Positions 33,660-49,517 of a DNA stretch of 64,000 nt are shown here, piece by piece. The translations under genes and the position numbers were made by a program. Origin of the DNA: Burkholderiales bacterium (GTDB lineage: Bacteria > Pseudomonadota > Gammaproteobacteria > Burkholderiales > Ga0077523); NCBI GenBank assembly GCA_022843925.1, contig JALHMS010000001.1:208294-272293 (forward strand), read 5' to 3'. Under the pieces are notes generated by a model. That model did no database searches and was not told the DNA's origin. It saw only the letters and a list, made by a program, of their open reading frames with translations. Numbering within the stretch: the first letter of the stretch is position 1; each line of letters begins with the position of its first letter.

Positions 33660-34016
33660 GTGAGCCAAACAATCCTCCGGGTTTTGTTAATGCAACTCGG
33701 GATTGCCGCAGTGGGCTTCCTCGGGTTTTACGCGTTCTCCGACACGAAAGCGGCCGTCTCGGCGCTGACTGGTGGGTTGCTCTGCTTGATCGCGGGGCTT
33801 CCTTATTCGTTGAGGGTCGCTTCCGCACGCACTGCGTCTCCGATGCAGGTCTTGTGGATTCACGGGCTGGGCGAGCTTTCGAGGGTCGGCATTACCATCG
33901 GCGTCATGGTGGTGGTTTTCAACCGGTTCCAGAATGAGATCGCCGCCTTGCCCATGTTGAGTACTTACATCGCGGCGACTCTGTCGTACTGGGTCGCCCT
34001 TATATTGTCCGACTGA
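33660..34016 (+). CDS. atpI: ATP synthase subunit I
   Basis: This 118-residue inner-membrane protein has about four hydrophobic segments (for example VLLMQLGIAAVGFLGFYAF and ITIGVMVVVFN). It occupies the usual atpI position at the head of the atp operon. AtpI is thought to help assemble the c-ring and is not essential for activity. GTG at 33660 is the likely start. It precedes atpB by 6 bases. Confidence 0.88.
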   Translation: MSQTILRVLLMQLGIAAVGFLGFYAFSDTKAAVSALTGGLLCLIAGLPYSLRVASARTASPMQVLWIHGLGELSRVGITIGVMVVVFNRFQNEIAALPMLSTYIAATLSYWVALILSD

Positions 34017-35118
<1,102 letters not shown>

Positions 35119-35190
35119 TCCAGACCTCCCCGAAACGCGGCTCGGGCGCTCCAGCCCAATGCCGCCGGTGTGTCTCGAGAGGAACAAGCC

Positions 35191-35661
35191 GTGAATCTGA
35201 ACGCAACGCTGATCGCCCAGACCATCGTCTTCTTCGTGCTGGCGTGGTTCACGATGAAGCTCGTATGGCCGCCCATCATGAAGGCGCTCGATGAGCGCGC
35301 CAGCAAGATCGCAGACGGTCTTGCTGCCGCTGAAAAGGGCAAGCAGAACCTTGCCTCCGCCGAATCCCGCGCGGGAGACATCGACCGCGAGGCCAGGGCC
35401 CGTGCACAGGAAGTGATCGCCGCCGCGGAGAAGCGCGCCGCTGCCATCATCGAGGAGGCCAAGTTGGCCGCCAAGACCGAAGGCGATCGCATCATTGCCG
35501 GTGCCCGCTCCGAAGTGCAGCAGGAAGCAACGCAACTCCGCGACGCACTTCGCCATCAAGTCGCCGCCCTCGCGGTGGCAGGCGCAGAGAAGATCCTGCG
35601 CCGCGAAGTCGACACCAAGGTGCACGAGTCGATGCTGTCCGAACTCGCGCGGGAACTCTGA
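35191..35661 (+). CDS. atpF: ATP synthase F0 subunit b
   Basis: Subunit b forms the peripheral stalk. The 156-residue product has one N-terminal membrane helix (about 5-25, LIAQTIVFFVLAWFTMKLVW) and a long charged coiled coil rich in Ala, Glu, Lys and Arg. GTG at 35191 is used because it gives the usual start NLNATLIAQ and has GAGAGGAA upstream. An earlier in-frame start would add seven unconserved residues. Confidence 0.96.
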   Translation: MNLNATLIAQTIVFFVLAWFTMKLVWPPIMKALDERASKIADGLAAAEKGKQNLASAESRAGDIDREARARAQEVIAAAEKRAAAIIEEAKLAAKTEGDRIIAGARSEVQQEATQLRDALRHQVAALAVAGAEKILRREVDTKVHESMLSELAREL

Positions 35662-35668
35662 GACTTCC

Positions 35669-36202
35669 ATGGCCGAGCTTTCCACCATCGCACGTCCGTA
35701 TGCGGAAGCCGCGTTCTCCGCGGCCGCAGACGCCGGAACGCTCAACGCGTGGGCCGACACGCTCGACTCGCTCGCCATGTTCGCCGGTTCGGACGACATG
35801 AACGATGTCGTGTCCGATCCTCGCGTCTCCTCCGGTCAGCAGGTCGAGTTGTTTGCCTCGCTCGTTCCGGGTCTCGACCCGGCCATGCGCAACTTCCTCG
35901 TCGCACTCGCGGAGCACAACCGGTTTCCGGCGCTTCCCGAGATCGCCAGGCAGTTCCATGATCTCAAGGCTGCACGAGAAGGTTCTGCGGAAGCGCACGT
36001 CACCGCCGCGTTTCCGATGGACGACGCCGCACTTGCACGCCTCGTGGCCTCGCTCGAAAAACGCTTCGGCAAGAAAATCCTGCCGCAGGTCTCCGTGGAC
36101 AACGCGCTCATCGGCGGCGTGACCGTCCGGGTCGGCGACGAGGTGATCGACGCGTCCGTCAAGGGACGTCTCGCCGCCATGGATGCCGCACTACGCAATT
36201 GA
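35669..36202 (+). CDS. atpH: ATP synthase F1 subunit delta
   Basis: Delta links the b stalk to the top of F1. The 177-residue protein has the start [17 protein letters not shown], a helical N-terminal domain and the C-terminal motif [24 protein letters not shown] at 35669 is 7 bases after atpF. The frame is open further upstream only as an overlap inside atpF. Confidence 0.96.
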
Positions 36203-36218
36203 ACATTCGAGGACAGTC

Positions 36219-37760
<1,542 letters not shown>

Positions 37761-37795
37761 GCCCCGCCACGACCTACGTTTGAAGGAGCACAGTC

Positions 37796-38680
37796 ATGGC
37801 GGTCGGCAAGGAAATTCGGGGCAAGATCAAGAGCTTCGAAAACACGAAGAAGATCACCAAGGCCATGGAAATGGTCTCGGCGTCCAAGATGCGGAAGGCG
37901 CAGGAACGCATGCGTGCCGCGCGGCCGTACGCGGACAAGATCCGGAACATCACGGCCAACCTGTCCCAGGCGAACCCGGAGTACCACAGCCCGTACATGC
38001 GGAAGGACGGTACTTCCAAGGTGACCGGCTTCATCGTCGTGACCACCGACAAGGGTCTGTGCGGCGGCCTGAACACGAACATGCTGCGGTCCGTCTCGAA
38101 CAAGATGAAGGACATGCAGTCCGCCGGACAGACAGCACAAGCCGTCGCCATCGGCAACAAGGGCTTCGGCTTCCTCAACCGCCTGGGCGCCAAGGTGATC
38201 AGTCACGCCGTGCAACTGGGTGACGCACCGCAGCTCGACAAGCTGATCGGTCCGGTGAAGGTGATGCTCGACGCCTTCGTGGAAGGGAAGGTGGACTCGG
38301 TCTATCTCTGCTACACGCGGTTCATCAACACGATGCGCCAGGAGCCGGTCATGGAGCAGCTGCTGCCGCTGTCGGCGGACCGGCTGCAGCAGACCGCTGC
38401 AGAGAAGGCGCAGTACGGTTGGGACTACATCTACGAACCCGATGCCGCCATCGTCATCGACGAACTGCTTCGCCGGTACATCGAGGCGCTGGTGTACCAG
38501 GCCGTCGCCGAGAACATGGCCTCGGAGCAGTCTGCCCGCATGGTGGCGATGAAAGCGGCCACCGACAACGCCGGCACCCTGATCGCCGATCTCAAGCTGG
38601 TCTACAACAAGACCCGCCAGGCAGCGATCACCAAGGAACTGTCCGAGATCGTGGGCGGAGCGGCCGCCATCGGCGGCTGA
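37796..38680 (+). CDS. atpG: ATP synthase F1 subunit gamma
   Basis: Gamma is the rotating central shaft. The 294-residue protein has the N-terminal coiled-coil pattern [20 protein letters not shown], the DKGLCGGLN motif, and the C-terminal helix ending [23 protein letters not shown] ribosome site precedes the ATG. It lies between atpA and atpD as usual. Confidence 0.97.
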
Positions 38681-38705
38681 CGCAGCCGCACGCAACGAAT
38701 TCTGA

Positions 38706-40121
<1,416 letters not shown>

Positions 40122-40161
40122 GGCGCCGCATCCACCTTCACGATCTCGAGGACACCTTCCC

Positions 40162-40578
40162 ATGGCAACCATCCAAGTCGACGTCGTCAGCGCCGAGGAG
40201 AGCATCTTCTCCGGCCAGGCCACGTTCGTTGCGCTGCCGGGTGAGAACGGCGAGCTGGGCATCATGCCCCGCCATACGCCGCTGATCACCCGCATCAAGC
40301 CCGGTGCGGTCCGAATCCAGCGCGCCGACAACGGCGAAGAGGAGTTCGTGTTCGTGGCCGGTGGCCTGCTCGAGGTGCAGCCGAACAGCGTCACGGTCCT
40401 GGCCGACACCGCCATCCGTGGTCGTGACCTCGACGAAGCGAAGGCGCTCGAAGCGAAGAAGCTCGCCGAGGAAGCGTTGCGCAACGCCAAGGACAAGGTC
40501 GAAGTCGCGACTGTCGAGGCCGAGCTCGCGGTGCTCGCCGCGGAACTGGCCGCCGTCCGCAAGCTGCGTCGCCGCTGA
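40162..40578 (+). CDS. atpC: ATP synthase F1 subunit epsilon
   Basis: Epsilon turns with gamma and restrains ATP hydrolysis. The 138-residue protein has the N-terminal beta-sandwich ([29 protein letters not shown], read in part; MPRHTPLIT) and two C-terminal helices rich in Ala and Glu. It is the last gene of the operon, followed within about 25 bases by a strong terminator. Confidence 0.96.
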
Positions 40579-40601
40579 TCCGACGTACCAGCGCGCCCCT
40601 G

Positions 40602-40670: not shown

Positions 40671-40699
40671 TTGACACCCTTGGATGTGCCGCCTACCCT
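40671..40699 (+). promoter_or_regulatory. Promoter of the ABC transporter cluster
   Basis: A perfect -35 TTGACA (40671-40676) with a 17-base spacer leads to TACCCT (40694-40699), a weak -10. It lies 41 bases before the binding-protein start and just after the atp terminator. The weak -10 suggests a need for an activator. Confidence 0.5.
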
Positions 40700-40740
40700 C
40701 CCGACGGTCCCCGATAGCTCCCGACTCCGAGAAGAAACCC

Positions 40741-41889
40741 ATGTCGTCCACCGCCCGTGCACTTCTCGCTGTTCTGCTCGCCACCGCCTCCCTCGCGTCC
40801 GCGAAGGACACCGTCCGCATTGCTTTCATCGGACCACTCACCGGCGGCGTCTCCGCCAATGGCCTGGGCGGGCGGAATTCCGCGGAGCTCGCCGTGAAGC
40901 TTCGCAATGCCGACGCCAAAGCGAAGTACTCGTACGAGCTGATGGCGCTGGACGACGAATGCAAGCCGAACGTCGGTGTGCAGGTGGCCACCAAGGCGGC
41001 AGCCGACAAGAACGTCATCGCAGCCGTCGCGCACTATTGCTCCACGGTCGCGATGGGCACCGTCGACGTCTACCACCGCTTCGGACTGCCTGTCGTGATC
41101 TGGGGCGCGGTGCTGCCCGACATCACCTACGCCAACGACTTCAAGGAGATCCATCGCGTCAACGGCACGATGATCAACCAGAACGAGACGGCGGCGAAGT
41201 TCATGGTCGCGCAGAAGTACAAGCGCTGGGCCATCATTCACGACACCACCGACTACGGCAAAGGGCACAACCGCTACTTCAGCGAGTATCTCCAGAAGAA
41301 CGGCGGGCAGATTCTCGGCACCTTCGGCGTCACCGCTGACCAGCAGGACTTCTCGGCCGAACTCACGCGCATCAAGGAGCTGAAGCCCGAAGTCATCTAC
41401 TTCGGTGGGATCACGCCGCTGGGTGTCCGCATCCGCAGCCAGATGGACAAGTTCGGTGTGAAAGCCGTGTTCCAGGGCACGTCCGGCATCATCTCCGACG
41501 CGTTCGTCGAGGGTCTCGGCCCGCTCGCCGAAGGTGTCGTGGCCTTCCGCGAAGGCGCGCCCGCGGAAAAGCTGCCTGGCGGAAAGTACTTCATCGAGCA
41601 GTACGCAAAAGCCGCCTACTCCGATCCGCCCGAAGCCTACGGGCCCTTCGCCTTCGCGGCAGCCAACCTGGTGATGGATGCCGTCGAGAAGGTCGGTCCC
41701 GATCGCAAGAAGGTCCGCAACGAGCTGAATCGCACCCACGACTACGATTCCGTCGTCGGCAAGATCAGCTTCGACGACCACCGCCAGAACGCCGTGCCGC
41801 TCATCACGAAGTTCGTCGTGCAGGGCGGCAAATGGCTCGTCTGGGAAGACAGCGAGTACGCCTCCGGCAAGCGACCCCTCGTACGCTGA
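40741..41889 (+). CDS. Branched-chain-amino-acid-type ABC transporter periplasmic binding protein
   Basis: The 382-residue protein has a signal peptide (about 1-20, ARALLAVLLATASLASA) and a type I periplasmic binding fold of the LivK family (VRIAFIGPLTGG, SAELAVKLRN, DDECKPNVGVQVATK). It should deliver a small amide or amino-acid-like ligand to the permeases encoded next. The ligand cannot be read from sequence. It may be an acylated or malonylated amino compound, judging only by the linked M20 and malonate genes. It is the first gene of a tight five-gene transporter set. Confidence 0.9.
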   Translation: MSSTARALLAVLLATASLASAKDTVRIAFIGPLTGGVSANGLGGRNSAELAVKLRNADAKAKYSYELMALDDECKPNVGVQVATKAAADKNVIAAVAHYCSTVAMGTVDVYHRFGLPVVIWGAVLPDITYANDFKEIHRVNGTMINQNETAAKFMVAQKYKRWAIIHDTTDYGKGHNRYFSEYLQKNGGQILGTFGVTADQQDFSAELTRIKELKPEVIYFGGITPLGVRIRSQMDKFGVKAVFQGTSGIISDAFVEGLGPLAEGVVAFREGAPAEKLPGGKYFIEQYAKAAYSDPPEAYGPFAFAAANLVMDAVEKVGPDRKKVRNELNRTHDYDSVVGKISFDDHRQNAVPLITKFVVQGGKWLVWEDSEYASGKRPLVR

Positions 41890-41907
41890 CGGCAGAACCC
41901 TCGCGTG

Positions 41908-42825
41908 ATGGATCCCGCGCTCTTCGCGCAGCACCTGCTGAACGGCGTGATGCTGGGCGTGATCTACGCCCTCGTCGCCGTCGGCTTCACGCTGTTCTTC
42001 GGCGTGCTCGACGTGATCAAGTTCTCCCACGGCGACGTCGTCATGCTCGGCGCGTTCACGGCCCTCGCCACGTCCATCGCCGCCTCGGCCGCGGGGCTCT
42101 CCTCCCCGGTCATCCTCGCTGCCATGCTGCTGGCTGCCATCGTCGGCATGGCACTCGTCGGCATGCTGATGGCGCGGTACCTGGTCTTGCCCCTGCGCAA
42201 CGCCCCGACGCTGAACGTCCTGCTCGTCACCCTCATGGCCGGCACCGTCATCCGCGAGGGCGTCCGGCTCTTCTATCCGCAGGGGTCCAATCCCAAGCCC
42301 TTTCCGCGCCTCCTGCCGACCGGCGCGTTCGAGTTCGGCGCATTCACGCTTCGCCACGACAGCATCGTGCTGCTGGTGCTGGGTGTCGGCGCGATCGTGT
42401 TCGTGCATCTGCTCATCGTCCGCACCCGCCTGGGTCTCGCGATCCGGGCCGTTGCGCAGGACCCCGAAACCGCCGCAGCGATGGGCATCCCCTTCCGCGG
42501 CACCGTGCTCGCGACCTTCGCCATCGGCTCGGCGCTCGCTGCGCTTGCCGGCGTGGTGAACGGCCTCTACTACAGTGAAGTGAGCTTCAACATGGGCCTC
42601 CTGCTCGGCGCCATCGGCTTCTCGGCCGCCGTGATCGGCGGGCTCGGCAACGTCTACGGTGCGATCCTCGGCGGATTCGTCTTCGCGGCGCTCCAGACCA
42701 TCGGCGCCGTGGCACTGCCCTTCGCGAGCGCCTACAAGGACGTCTTCGCTTTCGGCGTCGTGATCCTGCTCATGGCGTGGAAGCCGGGCGGCCTCCTCGC
42801 CGAACGCTCGGCGGAACGCGTCTGA
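41908..42825 (+). CDS. livH: ABC transporter permease, LivH family
   Basis: The 305-residue inner-membrane permease has about eight hydrophobic segments, the family start LNGVMLGVIYALVAVGFTLFFGVLDVIKFSHGD (quoted in part) and the cytoplasmic coupling region around AVAQDPETAAAMGI. It forms the channel with LivM. ATG at 41908 is used; GTG at 41905 directly precedes it. It is 18 bases after the binding-protein gene and overlaps livM by one base (TGATG). Confidence 0.92.
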   Translation: MDPALFAQHLLNGVMLGVIYALVAVGFTLFFGVLDVIKFSHGDVVMLGAFTALATSIAASAAGLSSPVILAAMLLAAIVGMALVGMLMARYLVLPLRNAPTLNVLLVTLMAGTVIREGVRLFYPQGSNPKPFPRLLPTGAFEFGAFTLRHDSIVLLVLGVGAIVFVHLLIVRTRLGLAIRAVAQDPETAAAMGIPFRGTVLATFAIGSALAALAGVVNGLYYSEVSFNMGLLLGAIGFSAAVIGGLGNVYGAILGGFVFAALQTIGAVALPFASAYKDVFAFGVVILLMAWKPGGLLAERSAERV

Positions 42826-43982
42826 TGGGTGCACCTGATCGCGCAACGATCTTCCCCGCGCTCGCCGCGATTCTCGCGGGCGCCGGCGCGACCCTCGCGC
42901 TGCTGCTCGCCGAGACCCAGTGGCACGTCGCCGTCGTGGCACTCGCCGGTGTCGCCGCGCTGCTGATCGGCGGGCGCGCCGGGTTCGGCGACGCCATCCA
43001 TCGCAGCGTTGCGAGCCATCACCGGGTCACCTCGGCCACCTCGTGGCTGGCGGGTGCCGTCGTCGTGTTCCTGCTGCGCGAACACAACTTCGAACTACTG
43101 ATGCTGTGCACGGTGATGCTGTACGTGCTTGCGGGCCTCGGTCTCACCGTCCAGTTCGGCTTCGCAGGCGTGGTGAATTTCGCTGCCGCCGCGTTCATGG
43201 GCGTCGGCGCGTACACCGCGGCGGTGCTGATGACGTCGACCGGGCTGCCGCACCTCGTCGTCGTCCTCGCCGCCGGTGTCGTCACCGCGCTCATCGGCTC
43301 CGTGTTGTTGCTGCCGCTGCTCCGCACGCGCGGCCACTACGCAGCGCTGATCACCATCGCCTTCGGCATCCTGTTCCGCACGTTCCTCGAAGTGAACGAT
43401 ACGCTCGGTGGGCCGCAGGGCCTGAAGGTGCCCGGTCTGCAGATCTTCGGGTATGCGTTCAACGAAGCCATCGAGTTCGACGACGAAACGGAGTGGTCCT
43501 TCTACACCGCCTACGCCGGCGTGTTTCTCGTGGTGCTCGGCCTCGCGTACACCCTCGTGCGACGCGTCGAGCGCTCGTGGATGGGGCTTGCACTCGACGC
43601 CGTGCGCCTCGACGAGACCGCCGCGTCCGCCTTCGGACTGAACGGCGCCGCCTGGAAGATCGCGGCGTTCTCGTTCGGCAATTTCCTCGCGGGCATCGCC
43701 GGTGCGCTGTACGCGATCCTCACGGCCTTCATCGCGCCGGCCAGTTTCACGTTCGGCGATTCGCTGCTGCTGCTGTCGATCGTCATCCTCGGCGGGCTCG
43801 GCAATCCGCTCGGCCTGCTGCCGGCCGCGCTCGTCGTGGTGGTCCTTCCCGAGAAGCTCCAGGTGATCCAGGAGTACCGCTTCCTGCTCTTCGCCGCGCT
43901 CGTGATCCTGATCCTGCTTCTGCGGCCCGGCGGTCTGATGCCGCGGCGCGCGCGCGAGTACTTCCCGGGGCGCTCGTCGTGA
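42825..43982 (+). CDS. livM: ABC transporter permease, LivM family
   Basis: The 385-residue protein has two or three extra N-terminal hydrophobic segments before the common LivM core (LGLTVQFGFAGVVNFA and LRTRGHYAALITIAFGILF). The coupling loop carries DAVRLDETAASAFG. It pairs with LivH. ATG at 42825 overlaps the livH stop, and its own stop overlaps the livG start by 4 bases, so the set is translationally coupled. Confidence 0.92.
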   Translation: MGAPDRATIFPALAAILAGAGATLALLLAETQWHVAVVALAGVAALLIGGRAGFGDAIHRSVASHHRVTSATSWLAGAVVVFLLREHNFELLMLCTVMLYVLAGLGLTVQFGFAGVVNFAAAAFMGVGAYTAAVLMTSTGLPHLVVVLAAGVVTALIGSVLLLPLLRTRGHYAALITIAFGILFRTFLEVNDTLGGPQGLKVPGLQIFGYAFNEAIEFDDETEWSFYTAYAGVFLVVLGLAYTLVRRVERSWMGLALDAVRLDETAASAFGLNGAAWKIAAFSFGNFLAGIAGALYAILTAFIAPASFTFGDSLLLLSIVILGGLGNPLGLLPAALVVVVLPEKLQVIQEYRFLLFAALVILILLLRPGGLMPRRAREYFPGRSS

Positions 43983-44761
43983 CGCATCTGCTCGAGGTTT
44001 CCGGGCTCTCGGTCCGATTCGGCGGCGTGCGCGCGCTCGATGGTCTCGACCTGCATCTCGACGAAGGCGAGACCCTCGGTCTCATCGGCCCCAACGGGTC
44101 CGGCAAGACCACCTCGTTCAACACCATCACCGGGTTCGTCCTGCCGGCCGGTGGCACGGTGCGCTTTGCCGGCGAGGACATCACCGCGCAACCTCCGCGG
44201 CACGTGGCCCGGCGTGGCATCGCGCGGACGTTCCAGCGCCTGCGCCTGCTCACCGAGCTGTCCGTCTTCGACAACCTGATGGTAGGCCAGCACCTCACTC
44301 TCGATCACGGCATCTGGGCGAACCTGCTCGGGCGCGGGCGGCTCCGTGGCGCCATCGCGCGCCAGACGGACGAGATGCGCACGCTGCTGCGCCACTTCAG
44401 CCCGACCCTGCCCGATCGGCTGCACGAGCCCGTCTCCGCGCTGACGATGATCGACCGCCGCCGCGTCGAGGTCTGCCGCGCGCTCGCGCGCTCGCCGCGT
44501 CTGCTGCTCCTCGACGAACCCTCCGCCGGCATGACGCCCGATGAGACGGCCGAGCTGATGCGCGATCTGCAGAACGTGAAGGCCGCACGACCCTCGCTGG
44601 CGGTGATCCTCATCGAGCACGACATGGCCGTGATCGAACGCGTCTCCGCGCGCTGCGTCGTGCTCGATTACGGCCGCAAGATCGCCGACGGCAGCTATGC
44701 CGAGGTGACGCGGGATCCGGCCGTCCGCCGCGCGTATCTCGGCGAGGAGGCGGACGCCTGA
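43979..44761 (+). CDS. livG: ABC transporter ATPase, LivG family
   Basis: The 260-residue ATPase has Walker A GPNGSGKTT (37-45), Walker B LLLLDEP (174-180) and the switch His in LIEHDMAVI. The usual LSGGQ-type signature is replaced by SALTMIDRRR (152-161), a variant of the LTLxxRKR form seen in part of the LivG family. GTG at 43979 overlaps the livM stop by 4 bases (GTGA). The start gives a regular LEVSGLSVRFGGVRAL N-terminus. Confidence 0.92.
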   Translation: MTHLLEVSGLSVRFGGVRALDGLDLHLDEGETLGLIGPNGSGKTTSFNTITGFVLPAGGTVRFAGEDITAQPPRHVARRGIARTFQRLRLLTELSVFDNLMVGQHLTLDHGIWANLLGRGRLRGAIARQTDEMRTLLRHFSPTLPDRLHEPVSALTMIDRRRVEVCRALARSPRLLLLDEPSAGMTPDETAELMRDLQNVKAARPSLAVILIEHDMAVIERVSARCVVLDYGRKIADGSYAEVTRDPAVRRAYLGEEADA

Positions 44762-45483
44762 TGGGACTCTCGCTCGAAGTGAAGAAGCTGCGCGTCGGCT
44801 ACGACCGCGCCGACGTGCTGACCGATGTCTCGATCGTCGCGCGCGCCGGCGAGATCACCTGCCTGCTCGGCGCCAACGGTGCAGGCAAGAGCACGCTCGT
44901 GCGCGCGGTGCTGGGGCTCACCCCGCCGCGGGAGGGCGAGATCCTGCTCGACGGACGGTCGATCGCCGGCCTCCCCACGCATCGCATCGCGGCCCGCGGC
45001 GTGGGCGCCATCCCGGAAGGCCGGCGCGTGTTCCCGAAGCTCACCGTGAAGGAGAACCTGCGCACGGGTGCGTATCTCGAGCGGGACGGCACCGTGATCG
45101 CCCGTCGCTTCGATGAGGTGTACGCGATCTTCCCGCGCCTCCTCGAACGTTCCAGCCAGCTCGCCGGCACCCTCTCCGGTGGTGAGCAGGCGATGCTGTC
45201 GATCGGTCGCGGCCTCATGGGATCCCCGGGGCTGCTCGTCATCGACGAACCTTCGCTCGGCCTCTCGCCACGGTTCGTGAAAGAGAATTTCCAGGTGATC
45301 CGGCGCATCCAGTCCACAGGGATCAGCGTGCTGCTCGTGGAGCAGAACGTCCATCAGACGCTCGACGTGGCGCATCGCGGCTATCTGCTCTCCGGTGGCC
45401 GGGTCGTGGCCGAAGGCACGGCCGACGAACTGAAGCAGCATCCCGCACTGGTGGCGGCCTACTTCGGTGGCGACGGACACTAG
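44761..45483 (+). CDS. livF: ABC transporter ATPase, LivF family
   Basis: The 240-residue ATPase has Walker A GANGAGKST (37-45), an intact signature LSGGEQ (138-143), Walker B LLVIDEPSLGL and the LivF motif PEGRRVFPKLTVKENL. ATG at 44761 overlaps the livG stop by one base (TGATG). It completes a full LIV-type importer. The next gene starts 86 bases later. Confidence 0.93.
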   Translation: MGLSLEVKKLRVGYDRADVLTDVSIVARAGEITCLLGANGAGKSTLVRAVLGLTPPREGEILLDGRSIAGLPTHRIAARGVGAIPEGRRVFPKLTVKENLRTGAYLERDGTVIARRFDEVYAIFPRLLERSSQLAGTLSGGEQAMLSIGRGLMGSPGLLVIDEPSLGLSPRFVKENFQVIRRIQSTGISVLLVEQNVHQTLDVAHRGYLLSGGRVVAEGTADELKQHPALVAAYFGGDGH

Positions 45484-45569
45484 TCGAGACCTCCGGCAGA
45501 CCCCATCACAACGCCGGGAGCGTGCGAAAGCCCGCAGATATACTCGCCCGAGAACCTCCGAGGAACCCC

Positions 45570-46700
45570 ATGGCCGCCCATCCCGATCCGCTTGCCCTCA
45601 CCCGCGAGCTGCTGCACTTCGACACCATCAATCCCCCCGGCCAGGAAGAACCCTGCGCCCATCACCTCGGCGCGCTGCTCGAAGCGGCCGGCTACCGGGT
45701 CACGTATCACGCGATGGGCCCTGGCCGCGCCAACCTCGTCGCGACGATCGGCGGTGACGCCGAGATCGCACCGCTCGTCTTCACCGGACACATCGACATC
45801 GTGCCGCTCGGCGCCGCGCCGTGGACGCGCGATCCGTTCGCGGGCGAGACCGACGGCGGACGCGTCTACGGTCGCGGGTCCAGCGACATGAAATCCGGCG
45901 TGGCCGCCTTCGTGGCCGCCGCCATCGAGATGGCACCCAAGCTCGCCCGCAGCCCCGGCATCACGCTCGTCATCACTGCGGGCGAAGAGACGGGCTGCAT
46001 GGGCGCGTACGATCTCGTCACCAAGCCCGGCGCCCTCGGGCGTGCCGGCGCGATCGTCGTGGCCGAGCCCACCGGCAACTATCCGTTCATCGGCCATCGC
46101 GGCGCCTATTGGCTGCAGGCGAAGACCCACGGCGTCACCGCGCACGGCTCGATGCCGGAGAAGGGCGTGAACGCCGTCTACAAGGCGGCCTGCGCCGTGA
46201 CCTGCCTCGAGCATTTCCACTACGCGACCCCGCCGCATTCCATGATGGGTCAGGGCACCCTGAACGTCGGGACCATCCGCGGCGGACTCAACATCAACTC
46301 CGTCCCTGACGAAGCCGTGATCGGCATCGACATGCGCACCGTGCCCACCCAGACGCACGCCGGGATCCGCGAGGAGCTGGTGGCCGCACTCGGACCCGGG
46401 GTCGAGCTCGACACCATGTTGAGCGTCGAGTCGGTGTACACGGAACCGGAACAGGCCTGGGTGCAGAGCGTGTTCGACGTGATGCAGCCGATCCTCGGCA
46501 GCCGCCCCGAGCCGCGCACCGCCACCTACTTCACCGACGCCGCGGTCCTGAAGCCGGCGTACGGGAATCCGCCCACCATCATCCTCGGCCCCGGTGAGCC
46601 GCAGATGGCGCACCAGACCGACGAGTACTGCATCGCCGAGCGCGTCCTCGAATCGCGGGCCGCCTTCGTCGAGCTGATCCGCCAGTGGTGCCGCGCGTAA
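45570..46700 (+). CDS. M20-family amidohydrolase/peptidase (ArgE/DapE type)
   Basis: The 376-residue zinc hydrolase has the M20 metal motifs: H74 and D76 in GHIDIVP, D106 in GRGSSDMKSG, catalytic Glu in AGEETG (138-143), E166 and a late His near 348. The dimerisation domain carries TAHGSMPEKG. Family members cleave N-acyl groups from amino acids (acetylornithine, succinyl-diaminopimelate) or small peptides. The position between an amino-compound importer and two malonate genes suggests an N-acyl, perhaps N-malonyl, amino acid as substrate; this is inference. ATG at 45570 has GAGGAA six bases upstream. Confidence 0.87.
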   Translation: MAAHPDPLALTRELLHFDTINPPGQEEPCAHHLGALLEAAGYRVTYHAMGPGRANLVATIGGDAEIAPLVFTGHIDIVPLGAAPWTRDPFAGETDGGRVYGRGSSDMKSGVAAFVAAAIEMAPKLARSPGITLVITAGEETGCMGAYDLVTKPGALGRAGAIVVAEPTGNYPFIGHRGAYWLQAKTHGVTAHGSMPEKGVNAVYKAACAVTCLEHFHYATPPHSMMGQGTLNVGTIRGGLNINSVPDEAVIGIDMRTVPTQTHAGIREELVAALGPGVELDTMLSVESVYTEPEQAWVQSVFDVMQPILGSRPEPRTATYFTDAAVLKPAYGNPPTIILGPGEPQMAHQTDEYCIAERVLESRAAFVELIRQWCRA

Positions 46701-46713
46701 ACCCCCGTCCGGC

Positions 46714-48015
46714 ATGACACCGCGTTTCCTGGAGCTGCCGGTGGCGGAGCGCGTGTCGAGCCTGCTCGACGCGGGCTCGGGCCTGTCCCTCGCGCGGCCT
46801 CCAGACGCCGCTGTGAACGCGCTCTCCATCGAGGGCACGATCGAGGGTCGGCGCGTGATGGTGCTCGCCACCGATCCGGCGCACGCAGCCGGTGCCATCG
46901 GGCGCGCCGATGCCGACCAGCTCGTGCGCGGCATCGCCCACGCCCGCGAGCGGCGCGTGCCGCTCGTGCTGCTCCTCGATTCCGCCGGGGCGATGCTGAC
47001 GGAGGGCGTGCAAGTCCTCGGGGCCTTCCGTCGTCTCGAACGCGAACTCCTCGATGCCGTGGCCGCCGACATTCCCGTGGCCGCCGTCCCCGGGCGCAAC
47101 TGCTTCGGTGGCGCGAGCCTGCTGGCGTTCGCGGCGGAGCTGCGGCTGTATCCCCGCGGGGCGCGACTCGGGGTGTCCGGATTGCGCTCGCTCGCAGCAT
47201 TGCGGGATGTCCCGCCCGACACCCTTGAGGTTCTCTTCGGCGCCGAGAGCCGGGCCCGGCACGACGAGCAGTCCGTGCTCGTCACCGACGCTCCCGACGC
47301 GCTCCGTGCGACGCTCCGTGCGTGGCTCGCCGACCGCCCGCCACGGCACAACCAGGCCGACGTGCAGCGGTCGCTCACCCGCCGTCTGCGCATGTACCGC
47401 GGCAATCCCTACAGCCTTCCGATGGTGCCGCCGCCCCCGGATCTGGAGTCGCGCCTGGACCACCTGTTTCCCGAAGGCTGGGGGGTCCTCTATGGCGACG
47501 GTGTGATCCACGGCGACGGCTGGGTGGATGGCCGCAACACCGGCATCGCCGGTTTCGTCGCGGGGCACGCCGTCGATGCCTTCGCGTGCTGGCGCTTCGC
47601 CGAGGCCCTTCGCCTCTTCGCGCGCGAGCCCCGGCACGTGCCCGTGACGCTGCTCCTCGACAGCCCCGGTCAGTCGAGCGTGATCGAGGACGAGCAGGTG
47701 CTGCTGTCCGAGTACATCGCGCTCGTGGCCCGCGGGGCCCACGCCCTCCGTGCGCAGGGCCGCTCGGTCGAGCTGTGGATGATCGGCGAGGCCGGCGGTG
47801 CCATCTACGTGGCGCTCGCCGCGGCGGCCACCACCATCACGGGCTGGCCCGGCCTGCGTCTGCAGACCATCCCGCCGCGTGCCGTGGATCGCGTCGTCGG
47901 CAAGCAGCCGGATGCGCCCCCCATCTCCGCGCTCTTCGAGGCGCGGGTCATCGACCGCTGGACCCGCTCGCCCGGTTTCGGGGAGTGGCCCGCACCCAGT
48001 GTTCCACCGCCATGA
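46714..48015 (+). CDS. Fused malonate-decarboxylase beta/gamma-like carboxyltransferase
   Basis: The 433-residue protein looks like two carboxyltransferase (crotonase-fold) halves in one chain. Residues about 1-205 resemble MdcD (ELPVAERVSSLLDAGS, VLLLDSAGAMLTEG, oxyanion-hole-like NCFGGASLLAFAAEL at 129-143). Residues about 245-425 resemble MdcE (VTLLLDSPGQSS, GEAGGAIYVALAAAA at 358-372). Malonate decarboxylase uses both subunits to decarboxylate malonyl-ACP without biotin. The acyl-carrier (MdcC) and transferase (MdcA) genes are not here; malonyl-CoA synthetase is instead, overlapping by 4 bases. It may decarboxylate malonyl-CoA directly. The fold call is fairly safe; the reaction is inferred. 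Confidence 0.7.
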   Translation: MTPRFLELPVAERVSSLLDAGSGLSLARPPDAAVNALSIEGTIEGRRVMVLATDPAHAAGAIGRADADQLVRGIAHARERRVPLVLLLDSAGAMLTEGVQVLGAFRRLERELLDAVAADIPVAAVPGRNCFGGASLLAFAAELRLYPRGARLGVSGLRSLAALRDVPPDTLEVLFGAESRARHDEQSVLVTDAPDALRATLRAWLADRPPRHNQADVQRSLTRRLRMYRGNPYSLPMVPPPPDLESRLDHLFPEGWGVLYGDGVIHGDGWVDGRNTGIAGFVAGHAVDAFACWRFAEALRLFAREPRHVPVTLLLDSPGQSSVIEDEQVLLSEYIALVARGAHALRAQGRSVELWMIGEAGGAIYVALAAAATTITGWPGLRLQTIPPRAVDRVVGKQPDAPPISALFEARVIDRWTRSPGFGEWPAPSVPPP

Positions 48016-49517
48016 ACCACAACTTTCTCGACCTCGTCGAAGCGCGCATGCCGCGCGACCCCGCGTCGCCCCTCCTCGAGACGGAGGACGGCAGCACCTG
48101 GAGCTATGGCCGCGTGATGGCGCTCTCCGCGCGCCTCGCGCACGCACTGGCCGCCGCCGGCGCGACGCGCGGGGATCGCGTCGCCGCGCAGGTCGAGAAG
48201 ACGCCCAACGCCCTCGCGCTGTATCTCGCGTGCCTGCGTGGCGGCTTCGTGTACCTCCCGCTCAACACCGCGTACCAGCCCGCAGAGGTCGCGTACTTCC
48301 TGGGCGATGCCGCGCCTGCCGTCTTCGTGTGCCGTCCGGAAAGTCGCGACGCCCTCGACCCCGCGATCCGCGAAGCGAGGATCCGCGCGGTTTTCACGCT
48401 CGATGCGGCCCACGGCGGCACGCTGATCGATGCCGCAGACTCGCAACCCGACGAACACCCCGTGGCGCAGGCCGGCGCCGACGATCTCGCCGTGATCATC
48501 TATACGTCCGGCACCACCGGCCGTTCGAAGGGCGCGATGCTGTCGCACGGCAACCTGTCGTCGAACGGTCTCGCGCTCGTCGAGGCATGGCAGTTCGGCG
48601 CGACCGACGTCCTCCTGCATCAGCTCCCGCTGTTCCACGTGCACGGGCTCTTCGTGGCGAACCACTGCGTGCTGCTGTCCGGCGCCCGCATGCTGTTCCA
48701 CCGGAAGTTCGACGCGAAGGTCGCGCTGGCCAGTCTCGCGCGCGCCACCGTGATGATGGGCGTGCCCACGTACTACGTGCGCCTGCTCGCGGAGCCCGGC
48801 TTCGATCGCGCCGCGGCGTCGGGTGTGCGGCTCTTCATCTCCGGCTCCGCGCCGCTGCTGCTCGAGACCTTCCGCGAGTTCGAGGATCGCATCGGCCAGC
48901 GCATCCTGGAGCGCTACGGCATGAGCGAGTCCGGGATGATCACGTCGAATCCGCTGAACGGTGAGCGGCGTGGCGGGACGGTGGGATCACCGCTGCCCGG
49001 CAACGAGGTCCGCGTCGCGGGCGCCGACGACCGGGCCCTGCCCGCGGGCGAGACCGGCGCCATCCAGATCCGCGGCGCCAACGTGTTCCACGGCTATTGG
49101 CGCATGCCCGAGAAGACGCGCGAGGAATTCACGGCCGACGGCTGGTTCCGCACCGGCGACGTGGGCGTGTTCGACGCGGACGGCTATCTGTCCATCGTCG
49201 GGCGCGCGAAGGACCTCATCATCAGCGGTGGCTACAACGTCTATCCGAAGGAGATCGAGCTGGAGCTCGACGTCCTGCCGGGGGTGGTCGAATCCGCCGT
49301 CGTGGGCGTACCGCATCCCGATTTCGGGGAGGCCGTGGTCGCCGTGGTCGTGCTCGCCAAGGGCGCGATGCTCGACGAGGCGGCGACCATCGCCGGCCTG
49401 CGCACACGCCTCGCGAACTACAAGGTGCCGAAGCGCGTGCACGTGGTCGACGACCTCCCGCGCAACGCGATGGGCAAGGTGCAGAAGGCGGAGCTGCGCA
49501 AGCGCTACGGCGGTTGA
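48012..49517 (+). CDS. matB: Malonyl-CoA synthetase (malonate-CoA ligase)
   Basis: The 501-residue adenylate-forming enzyme should convert malonate, ATP and CoA to malonyl-CoA. It has the P-loop YTSGTTGRSKG (164-174), LFISGSAPLLLETFREF, ERYGMSESGM, YWRMPEKTREEF and GRAKDLIISGGYNVYPKE, all closely matching the MatB pattern rather than long-chain ligases. The C-terminal Lys is in MGKVQKAEL. ATG at 48012 overlaps the preceding stop (ATGA). No GNAT-like malonyl-CoA decarboxylase (matA) or MatC carrier is beside it. The fused carboxyltransferase and ABC importer may take those places. Confidence 0.88.
   Translation: MNHNFLDLVEARMPRDPASPLLETEDGSTWSYGRVMALSARLAHALAAAGATRGDRVAAQVEKTPNALALYLACLRGGFVYLPLNTAYQPAEVAYFLGDAAPAVFVCRPESRDALDPAIREARIRAVFTLDAAHGGTLIDAADSQPDEHPVAQAGADDLAVIIYTSGTTGRSKGAMLSHGNLSSNGLALVEAWQFGATDVLLHQLPLFHVHGLFVANHCVLLSGARMLFHRKFDAKVALASLARATVMMGVPTYYVRLLAEPGFDRAAASGVRLFISGSAPLLLETFREFEDRIGQRILERYGMSESGMITSNPLNGERRGGTVGSPLPGNEVRVAGADDRALPAGETGAIQIRGANVFHGYWRMPEKTREEFTADGWFRTGDVGVFDADGYLSIVGRAKDLIISGGYNVYPKEIELELDVLPGVVESAVVGVPHPDFGEAVVAVVVLAKGAMLDEAATIAGLRTRLANYKVPKRVHVVDDLPRNAMGKVQKAELRKRYGG

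Follow-up and report, generated by a model that had tools for sequence, protein, structure and literature searches.

In the mat route, the partner of malonyl-coenzyme A (malonyl-CoA) synthetase (MatB) is MatA, a malonyl-CoA decarboxylase (MCD; PF05292, PF17408). Biotin-independent malonate decarboxylase contains the crotonase-fold subunits MdcD and MdcE (PDB 5VIP, 5VIT, 5VJ1), and the structural report (PMC5534430) describes how this separate pair itself decarboxylates malonyl-CoA in vitro, with a kcat of 2.3 per s, a K0.5 of 100 µM and a kcat/Km 38-fold under that of human MCD, its authors leaving the physiological meaning of the activity open. Here we describe a gene from a Burkholderiales bacterium (GCA_022843925.1, contig JALHMS010000001.1, positions 208,294 to 272,293; this stretch of 64,000 nucleotides is the window analysed, and coordinates are given within it) that joins an MdcD-like and an MdcE-like domain in one 433-residue chain (46714..48015, plus strand) and runs directly into matB (48012..49517, plus strand; 501 residues). 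From the way the genes are ordered and conserved, the relation of the protein to known families, its predicted fold, the residues it retains and the lack of MCD, MdcA and MdcC in the genome, we propose, at a probability of about 0.55, that the fused protein is a single-chain, biotin- and acyl-carrier-free malonyl-CoA decarboxylase working with MatB, a proposal in which the substrate, the reaction, the in-chain active site and the source of malonate are what we infer from those data. We give slightly less than even odds to the wider claim that it represents a third kind of malonyl-CoA decarboxylase, in which one crotonase-fold chain with MdcD- and MdcE-type domains, using neither biotin nor an acyl carrier, takes malonate to acetyl-CoA with MatB alone.

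The closest described system is MdcD–MdcE, with which the fused protein shares a pair of crotonase-fold domains and their order, the oxyanion-hole positions, a Gln at the place of MdcE Gln100 and, in prospect, a reaction that MdcD–MdcE itself performs in vitro. Unlike that pair, it is one chain rather than two, has no counterpart of the last ~80 residues of MdcE, carries Gly in place of Ser142, scores under the curated family cut-offs, forms a clade separate from MdcD and has neither MdcA nor MdcC in its genome. With MatA/MCD it would have both the reaction and the MatB partner in common, although the sequence families are unrelated and MatA/MCD is absent from this genome. The fold, the Carboxyl_trans domain and the CoA-side motifs are those of the acyl-CoA carboxylase carboxyltransferases (PCC beta, AccD–AccA, transcarboxylase 12S), from which the fusion differs in its MdcE-like C domain, in having no biotin partner recognised nearby and, relative to PCC beta chains, in its predicted in-chain packing. 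The window MatB, when set beside 4FUQ and NF005702, is an ordinary full member of its family but is preceded by the fusion rather than paired with matA. No account of a fused MdcD–MdcE, or of a biotin-free malonyl-CoA decarboxylase beside matB, was found in the literature as represented by titles and abstract openings, with few subscription journals among them. A family that fuses both subunits, without the carrier machinery and tied to MatB, makes the question left open for MdcD–MdcE testable with one purified protein.

A fused family close to MdcD and MdcE

The N-terminal half of the fused protein matches NCBIfam malonate_beta (TIGR03133; residues 40-226, E 1e-14) and the C-terminal half malonate_gamma (TIGR03134; residues 246-397, E 7e-10). 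Profile-profile comparison with the MdcD and MdcE of relatives delimits an MdcD-like N domain (residues 3-229, 46720..47400, plus strand; 99.6%, E 4e-25) and the core of an MdcE-like C domain (residues 246-397, 47449..47904, plus strand; 98.9%, E 2e-17). Its scores remain under the cut-offs that define those families, at 54.5 bits against a curated 278 for TIGR03133, 38.9 against 237 for TIGR03134 and 27.9 against 32.7 for PF06833, and a domain search found no PF05292 (MCD/MatA) match in it; by cut-off, the protein is a member of neither MdcD nor MdcE nor MCD. Across the family, malonate_beta is matched by all 34 fused members and malonate_gamma by 33 of them (best E 5e-29 and 2e-31), while AccD models reach at best only 4e-13 and AccA-type models match at most 7 members. 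Both halves are thus nearer to MdcD and MdcE than to any other named family. Searched against the PDB, the family profile recovers MdcE weakly (E 0.002), and phmmer with one C half alone returned no true relative.

The Carboxyl_trans domain (PF01039) scores 53.3 bits, above the Pfam cut-off of 22.3, and many biotin-dependent carboxyltransferases stand among the structural matches, both of which favour a fused protein that serves as the carboxyltransferase of a biotin-dependent acyl-CoA carboxylase and makes malonyl-CoA-type esters. We consider this very unlikely, given the preference of the C half for MdcE over AccA models just described, the presence of ordinary AccD-like genes elsewhere in the genome (weak matches, contig C5) and the fact that no biotin carboxylase or carrier was recognised among the neighbouring open reading frames inspected, no genome-wide search having been made.

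In a tree of N halves, a branch (96/98) separates the 34 fused proteins from six MdcD and five other carboxyltransferases. Sixteen of the fused proteins make up clade B (100/100), and group A is our label for the remaining 18, the window protein included, which are not a supported clade themselves. The ratio of nonsynonymous to synonymous substitution rates (dN/dS) of the fused gene is 0.07-0.37 in four pairs, similar to MatB, and 22 alignment columns are invariant in the 34 members, many of them glycines or polar residues at both active-site halves. Together with the MatB-like gene found downstream in every readable locus, these ratios indicate that the fused gene is more than chance: the fusion is a real family under purifying selection. 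The gene is broken by an in-frame stop in loci L057 (7944-9149) and L021; alignment A1 omits L021, along with L023, and alignment A2 omits L057, along with L066, L067, L070 and L078.

Linkage to matB

The stop codon of the fused gene and the start codon of matB share an ATGA, a 4-base overlap. The product of this matB scores 778 bits with the malonyl-CoA synthase model NF005702, above the cut-off of 558, which makes it a full member of that family; its closest solved structure is the malonyl-CoA synthetase 4fuq (E 1e-163). A species-collection search returned 52 loci, of which 38 hold the fused gene or its end and 34 are readable downstream, and a MatB-like gene follows on the same strand in 34/34; outside this count are four loci that break off inside the gene or shortly behind it (L066, L067, L068, L070) and 14 distant loci without MatB (L071-L077, L079-L085). 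Two cases within the 34 are weaker, L054 with 37% over 189 residues to the contig end and L058 with a 311-residue open reading frame in between. With matB starts set by homology, the two genes overlap in 13 of 32 loci, lie 0-60 bases apart in 16 and are separated by more than 60 bases in 3. Among 100 related genomes, 22 have the fused gene and 19 of these have MatB adjacent by coordinates; the 22 were chosen by hand from full-length or two-part matches, G016 and G092 being the weakest, and the two surveys are not independent since the species-collection loci come partly from the same species as the 100 genomes.

An earlier note on this DNA, made from the sequence alone, had described a 433-residue reading frame with two MdcD/MdcE-like halves whose stop overlaps the matB start by 4 bases. 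Profiles for both halves and the fold of the N half bear out the first point and the ATGA junction the second, the resemblance to MdcD extends to a confident structural model whose N domain is closest to that subunit, and the pairing with matB that the note saw at one locus recurs at all 34 readable ones.

Tight coupling of this kind (overlap in 13 of 32 loci, a further 16 within 60 bases) would also suit a non-catalytic MatB partner or regulator, acting in a complex, as a stabiliser or as a product sensor. Such a role gains something from the somewhat faster evolution of the fusion than of MatB in two of the four pairs (dN/dS 0.37 vs 0.26 in L042) and from a relative in genome G016 (L105) without the N-domain motifs. 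The ratios nevertheless stay well below 1 and the invariant columns gather in good part at both active-site halves, and we therefore regard a purely non-catalytic protein as quite improbable.

Predicted fold and putative active site

The AF2 model of the fused protein is of high confidence (mean predicted local distance difference test 91.7, predicted template modelling score 0.92), with low values at residues 420-433. The best structural match of the N domain is MdcD 5vip_D (Z 27.4, 215 residues, 2.0 Å), several carboxyltransferases following within 1 Z unit, and both domains together fit the single-chain acetyl-CoA carboxylase 9kkm_A (390 residues, 3.1 Å, Z 25.0). Whole PCC-type chains fit the model only at 16-18 Å. 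Foldseek alone likewise gave template modelling scores of ~0.4 and root-mean-square deviations of 16-20 Å to whole carboxyltransferase chains, because domain packing at the level of the chain differs. The model suggests that the two domains pack into one active site within a single chain, an arrangement that MdcD and MdcE achieve with two separate ones.

In profile alignments, Ala93 and Gly132 fall on the oxyanion-hole positions of MdcD, Gln320 on the Gln and Gly362 on the Ser of MdcE, the mapping to Val121/Gly162 and Gln100/Ser142 of the Pseudomonas aeruginosa proteins following from motif and equal spacing. Both Ala93 and Gly132 are invariant in 34/34 members, so that the oxyanion hole of the MdcD side is kept. 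The Gln100 place, Gln320 in the window protein, holds Gln in 13 and His in 21 of the 34. The window protein would thus retain one of the two MdcE residues named as important, Gln100 but not Ser142; the MdcE variants S142A and Q100E were each ~10-fold weaker in the structural report (PMC5534430).

We suggest the following sequence of events for a malonyl-CoA decarboxylase built in this way. The M20-family deacylase encoded just upstream would probably free malonate inside the cell from an amide imported by the adjacent Liv-type transporter, and MatB, translated from the overlapping gene, would turn malonate, ATP and CoA into malonyl-CoA. This ester would be bound by the fused protein mainly through its MdcD-like N domain, with the thioester oxygen held in the oxyanion hole by the backbone amides of Ala93 and Gly132 and the free carboxylate facing Gln320 and the residues around it in the MdcE-like C domain, whereupon CO2 would leave and acetyl-CoA would be formed. 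If so, malonate catabolism in bacteria with the fusion would need two enzymes only, which is simpler than the known routes, and what is a weak side activity of MdcD–MdcE on malonyl-CoA would, in nature, have given rise to an enzyme devoted to it, to be ranked with MatA/MCD and the Mdc/Mad systems. Such an enzyme would also be of practical use for adjusting malonyl-CoA levels.

Other malonate enzymes and the choice of substrate

The genome itself (99.15% complete) contains no MCD by PF05292 or PF17408, no MdcA by PF16957 and no MdcC by PF06857; controls matched for the last two, and MdcB, MdcG and MdcH were not searched for. The MCD control genomes gave no match in this search, and the MCD models match 20 and 19 of the 100 relatives; with 20 of 100 matched, the MCD search works. 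The MdcA model matches 13 of the same 100, and neither MCD nor MdcA occurs in any of 12 genomes of the genus. Kinship to MdcD–MdcE could be taken to mean that the fused protein acts together with an acyl carrier protein, in the manner of those subunits in malonate decarboxylase, but a genome that lacks both MdcA and a carrier of the MdcC/CitD type, and in which MatB supplies a CoA ester, makes this extremely unlikely.

Among the related genomes, 20 have the fusion and MatB, 16 of them without MCD and MdcA and 4 with MCD, whereas the 13 with MatB alone divide into 7 with MCD, 2 with MdcA and 4 with neither (MdcA being counted here in the 10 genomes with E <1e-280, which leaves uncounted G037 and G071, short though over the cut-off, and G034, below it). 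The smaller number of MCD genes in fusion genomes is a trend and no proof of replacement.

Several observations weigh against malonyl-CoA decarboxylation by the fused protein or narrow its reach. The difference just described, MCD in 4/20 vs 7/13, is not significant (Fisher p 0.06), and counted by bacterial family it shrinks to 3/6 vs 5/9. In G004 and G029, an M20 gene is directly followed by matB with no fusion between them and with no MCD or MdcA, which implies that malonyl-CoA can be used there without the fusion. Three of the 22 fusion genomes have the fused gene away from matB, G029 with MatB elsewhere and G016 and G092 with no MatB. At the active site, the place of Ser142 is Gly in 34/34 (by the inferred mapping), and position 94, Lys or Arg in 29/34, is Met in the window protein. 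The nearest in-vitro precedent, MdcD–MdcE acting on malonyl-CoA, is slow. An MCD gene lies in 8/16 clade-B loci and in 0/18 group-A loci (Fisher p 0.0007, a value that ignores relatedness and unequal locus lengths), following MatB in six (L047, L049, L050, L051, L053, L063) and lying upstream, in the opposite orientation, in the remaining two, L054 and L059. Finally, in G029 (L107, 1863-10251) the fusion is part of a different Liv-type operon, which also encodes a benzoate-CoA-ligase-family enzyme and an alpha/beta hydrolase and where perhaps another CoA ester is its substrate, and in G016 (L105, 6304-8758) the relative that has lost its N-domain motifs is preceded by a YdiJ-like gene and followed by a family III CoA-transferase. 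In view of the clade-B MCD genes, G004 and G029, L107 and L105, the substrate may vary or be something other than malonyl-CoA itself.

The MCD genes of clade B also bear on the broader expectations of the earlier note. Its statement that MdcA, MdcC and MatA are missing, made for the neighbourhood, now extends to the whole genome, and its idea of a two-enzyme MatB route distinct from the one through MCD is partly supported. As a general rule, the idea gives way before the 8/16 clade-B loci, G004 and G029, and the 3/22 fusions away from matB. The note had further tied its proposal to residues of both active sites, of which the oxyanion-hole positions and the Gln100 place are kept and the Ser142 place is not. 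That the fusion strictly takes over from MCD we reject as a general rule, the clade-B loci carrying both and the genome counts falling short of significance; in clade B, it is no plain substitute for MCD.

If MCD and the fusion both took malonyl-CoA, their co-occurrence in half of the clade-B loci would be redundant, which favours a fused protein whose substrate for decarboxylation is a malonyl-CoA with a substituent (methylmalonyl-, hydroxymalonyl- or another alkylmalonyl-CoA) or some other beta-carboxylate CoA ester, malonyl-CoA being left to fatty acid synthesis or MCD. The ligase that takes the place of MatB in L107 points in the same direction, as does a switch at the substrate position that tracks the clades, the Gln100 place being His in 16/16 clade-B members and Gln in 13/18 of group A. 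MatB-type enzymes accept methylmalonate too. We judge this alternative unlikely for the window protein, though it is a serious contender, as its MatB is a full malonyl-CoA synthase family member, no family lies closer to the fusion than the malonate decarboxylase subunits and the order M20–fusion–MatB fits malonate itself. Whether or not malonyl-CoA is the substrate throughout, the two groups, one with Gln and without MCD and the other with His and often with MCD, provide a ready comparison of substrate choice.

Clade B has a setting of its own. A YdiJ-like FAD/FeS dehydrogenase, under the YdiJ cut-off, precedes the fusion in 8/16 of its loci. In L047, L050, L063 and others, the cluster comprises a TRAP transporter and a BhcA-like aminotransferase on the other strand, then the YdiJ-like dehydrogenase, the fusion and matB, several also having MCD. 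One idea is that clade B takes part in metabolite repair, dealing with malonate and D-2-hydroxy acids. Two apparent novelties of these loci were discarded: a giant N-terminal fusion (a 1841-residue open reading frame in L047) is an open frame overlapping the real YdiJ-like gene in another frame, and a 290-residue gene after MatB (L049 and others) is a shadow reading frame over the MCD gene. The fused protein at L106 (5980-8261) outscores all others here as an MdcE match, with 84.3 bits that exceed the Pfam cut-off, and its gene adjoins a TauE-family permease, without MatB or MdcA.

Genomic setting

In the window, a Liv-type transporter (40684-45483), the M20 deacylase, the fused gene and matB follow one another on the plus strand. 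The transporter genes, all on that strand, encode a Liv-type substrate-binding protein (40684..41889; Peripla_BP_6), a LivH/UrtB-type permease (41905..42825; scores under the equivalog cut-offs), a LivM-type permease (42825..43982; start inferred, named by eye), a LivG-type ABC ATPase (43979..44761; GTG start inferred, named from its position and from matches in related loci) and a LivF-type ABC ATPase (44761..45483; open reading frame and domain search). The M20-family (ArgE/DapE-type) deacylase gene (45522..46700, plus strand) scores 218.9 bits against the TIGR01910 cut-off of 217.6. An M20 gene lies directly 5' of the fusion in 15/17 group-A loci, and L045 keeps the M20–fusion–MatB order without adjacent Liv genes.

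ATP synthase genes lie in the region 34000-40600, with the Liv/M20/fusion/matB cluster just downstream, and ATP synthase beta/epsilon genes also lie upstream of the cluster in L034, L038, L039, L043, L044, L046, L064 and L069. Their recurrence in the window and eight further loci suggests an old fixed chromosomal place of the cluster. Spread by plasmids or viruses was considered and rejected, there being no plasmid match and no relative in viral contigs. A wide spread in the phylum was likewise rejected, since at E 1e-40 a survey of 398 genomes returned the own genome alone, a survey in which four candidates were scored per genome and rare relatives may be missed. Two loci carry doubtful species labels, L036, labelled an Acidobacteria metagenome-assembled genome yet nearly identical to the betaproteobacterial L037, and L045, labelled a Bordetella parapertussis metagenome-assembled genome yet grouping with unclassified Betaproteobacteria; both are probably misbinned or misnamed.

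The genome holds a second fusion and MatB pair, in adjoining genes on contig C19 (L003, 9522-12349), 33% identical to the first. It lies near a formamidase-family (FmdA-family) protein, an amidase and a urea-type ABC transporter, the binding protein of which scores above the cut-off of the urea-transporter model TIGR03669. This pair may serve the release of malonate from an amide or ureido compound, and the settings of both pairs would fit malonate release from an amide.

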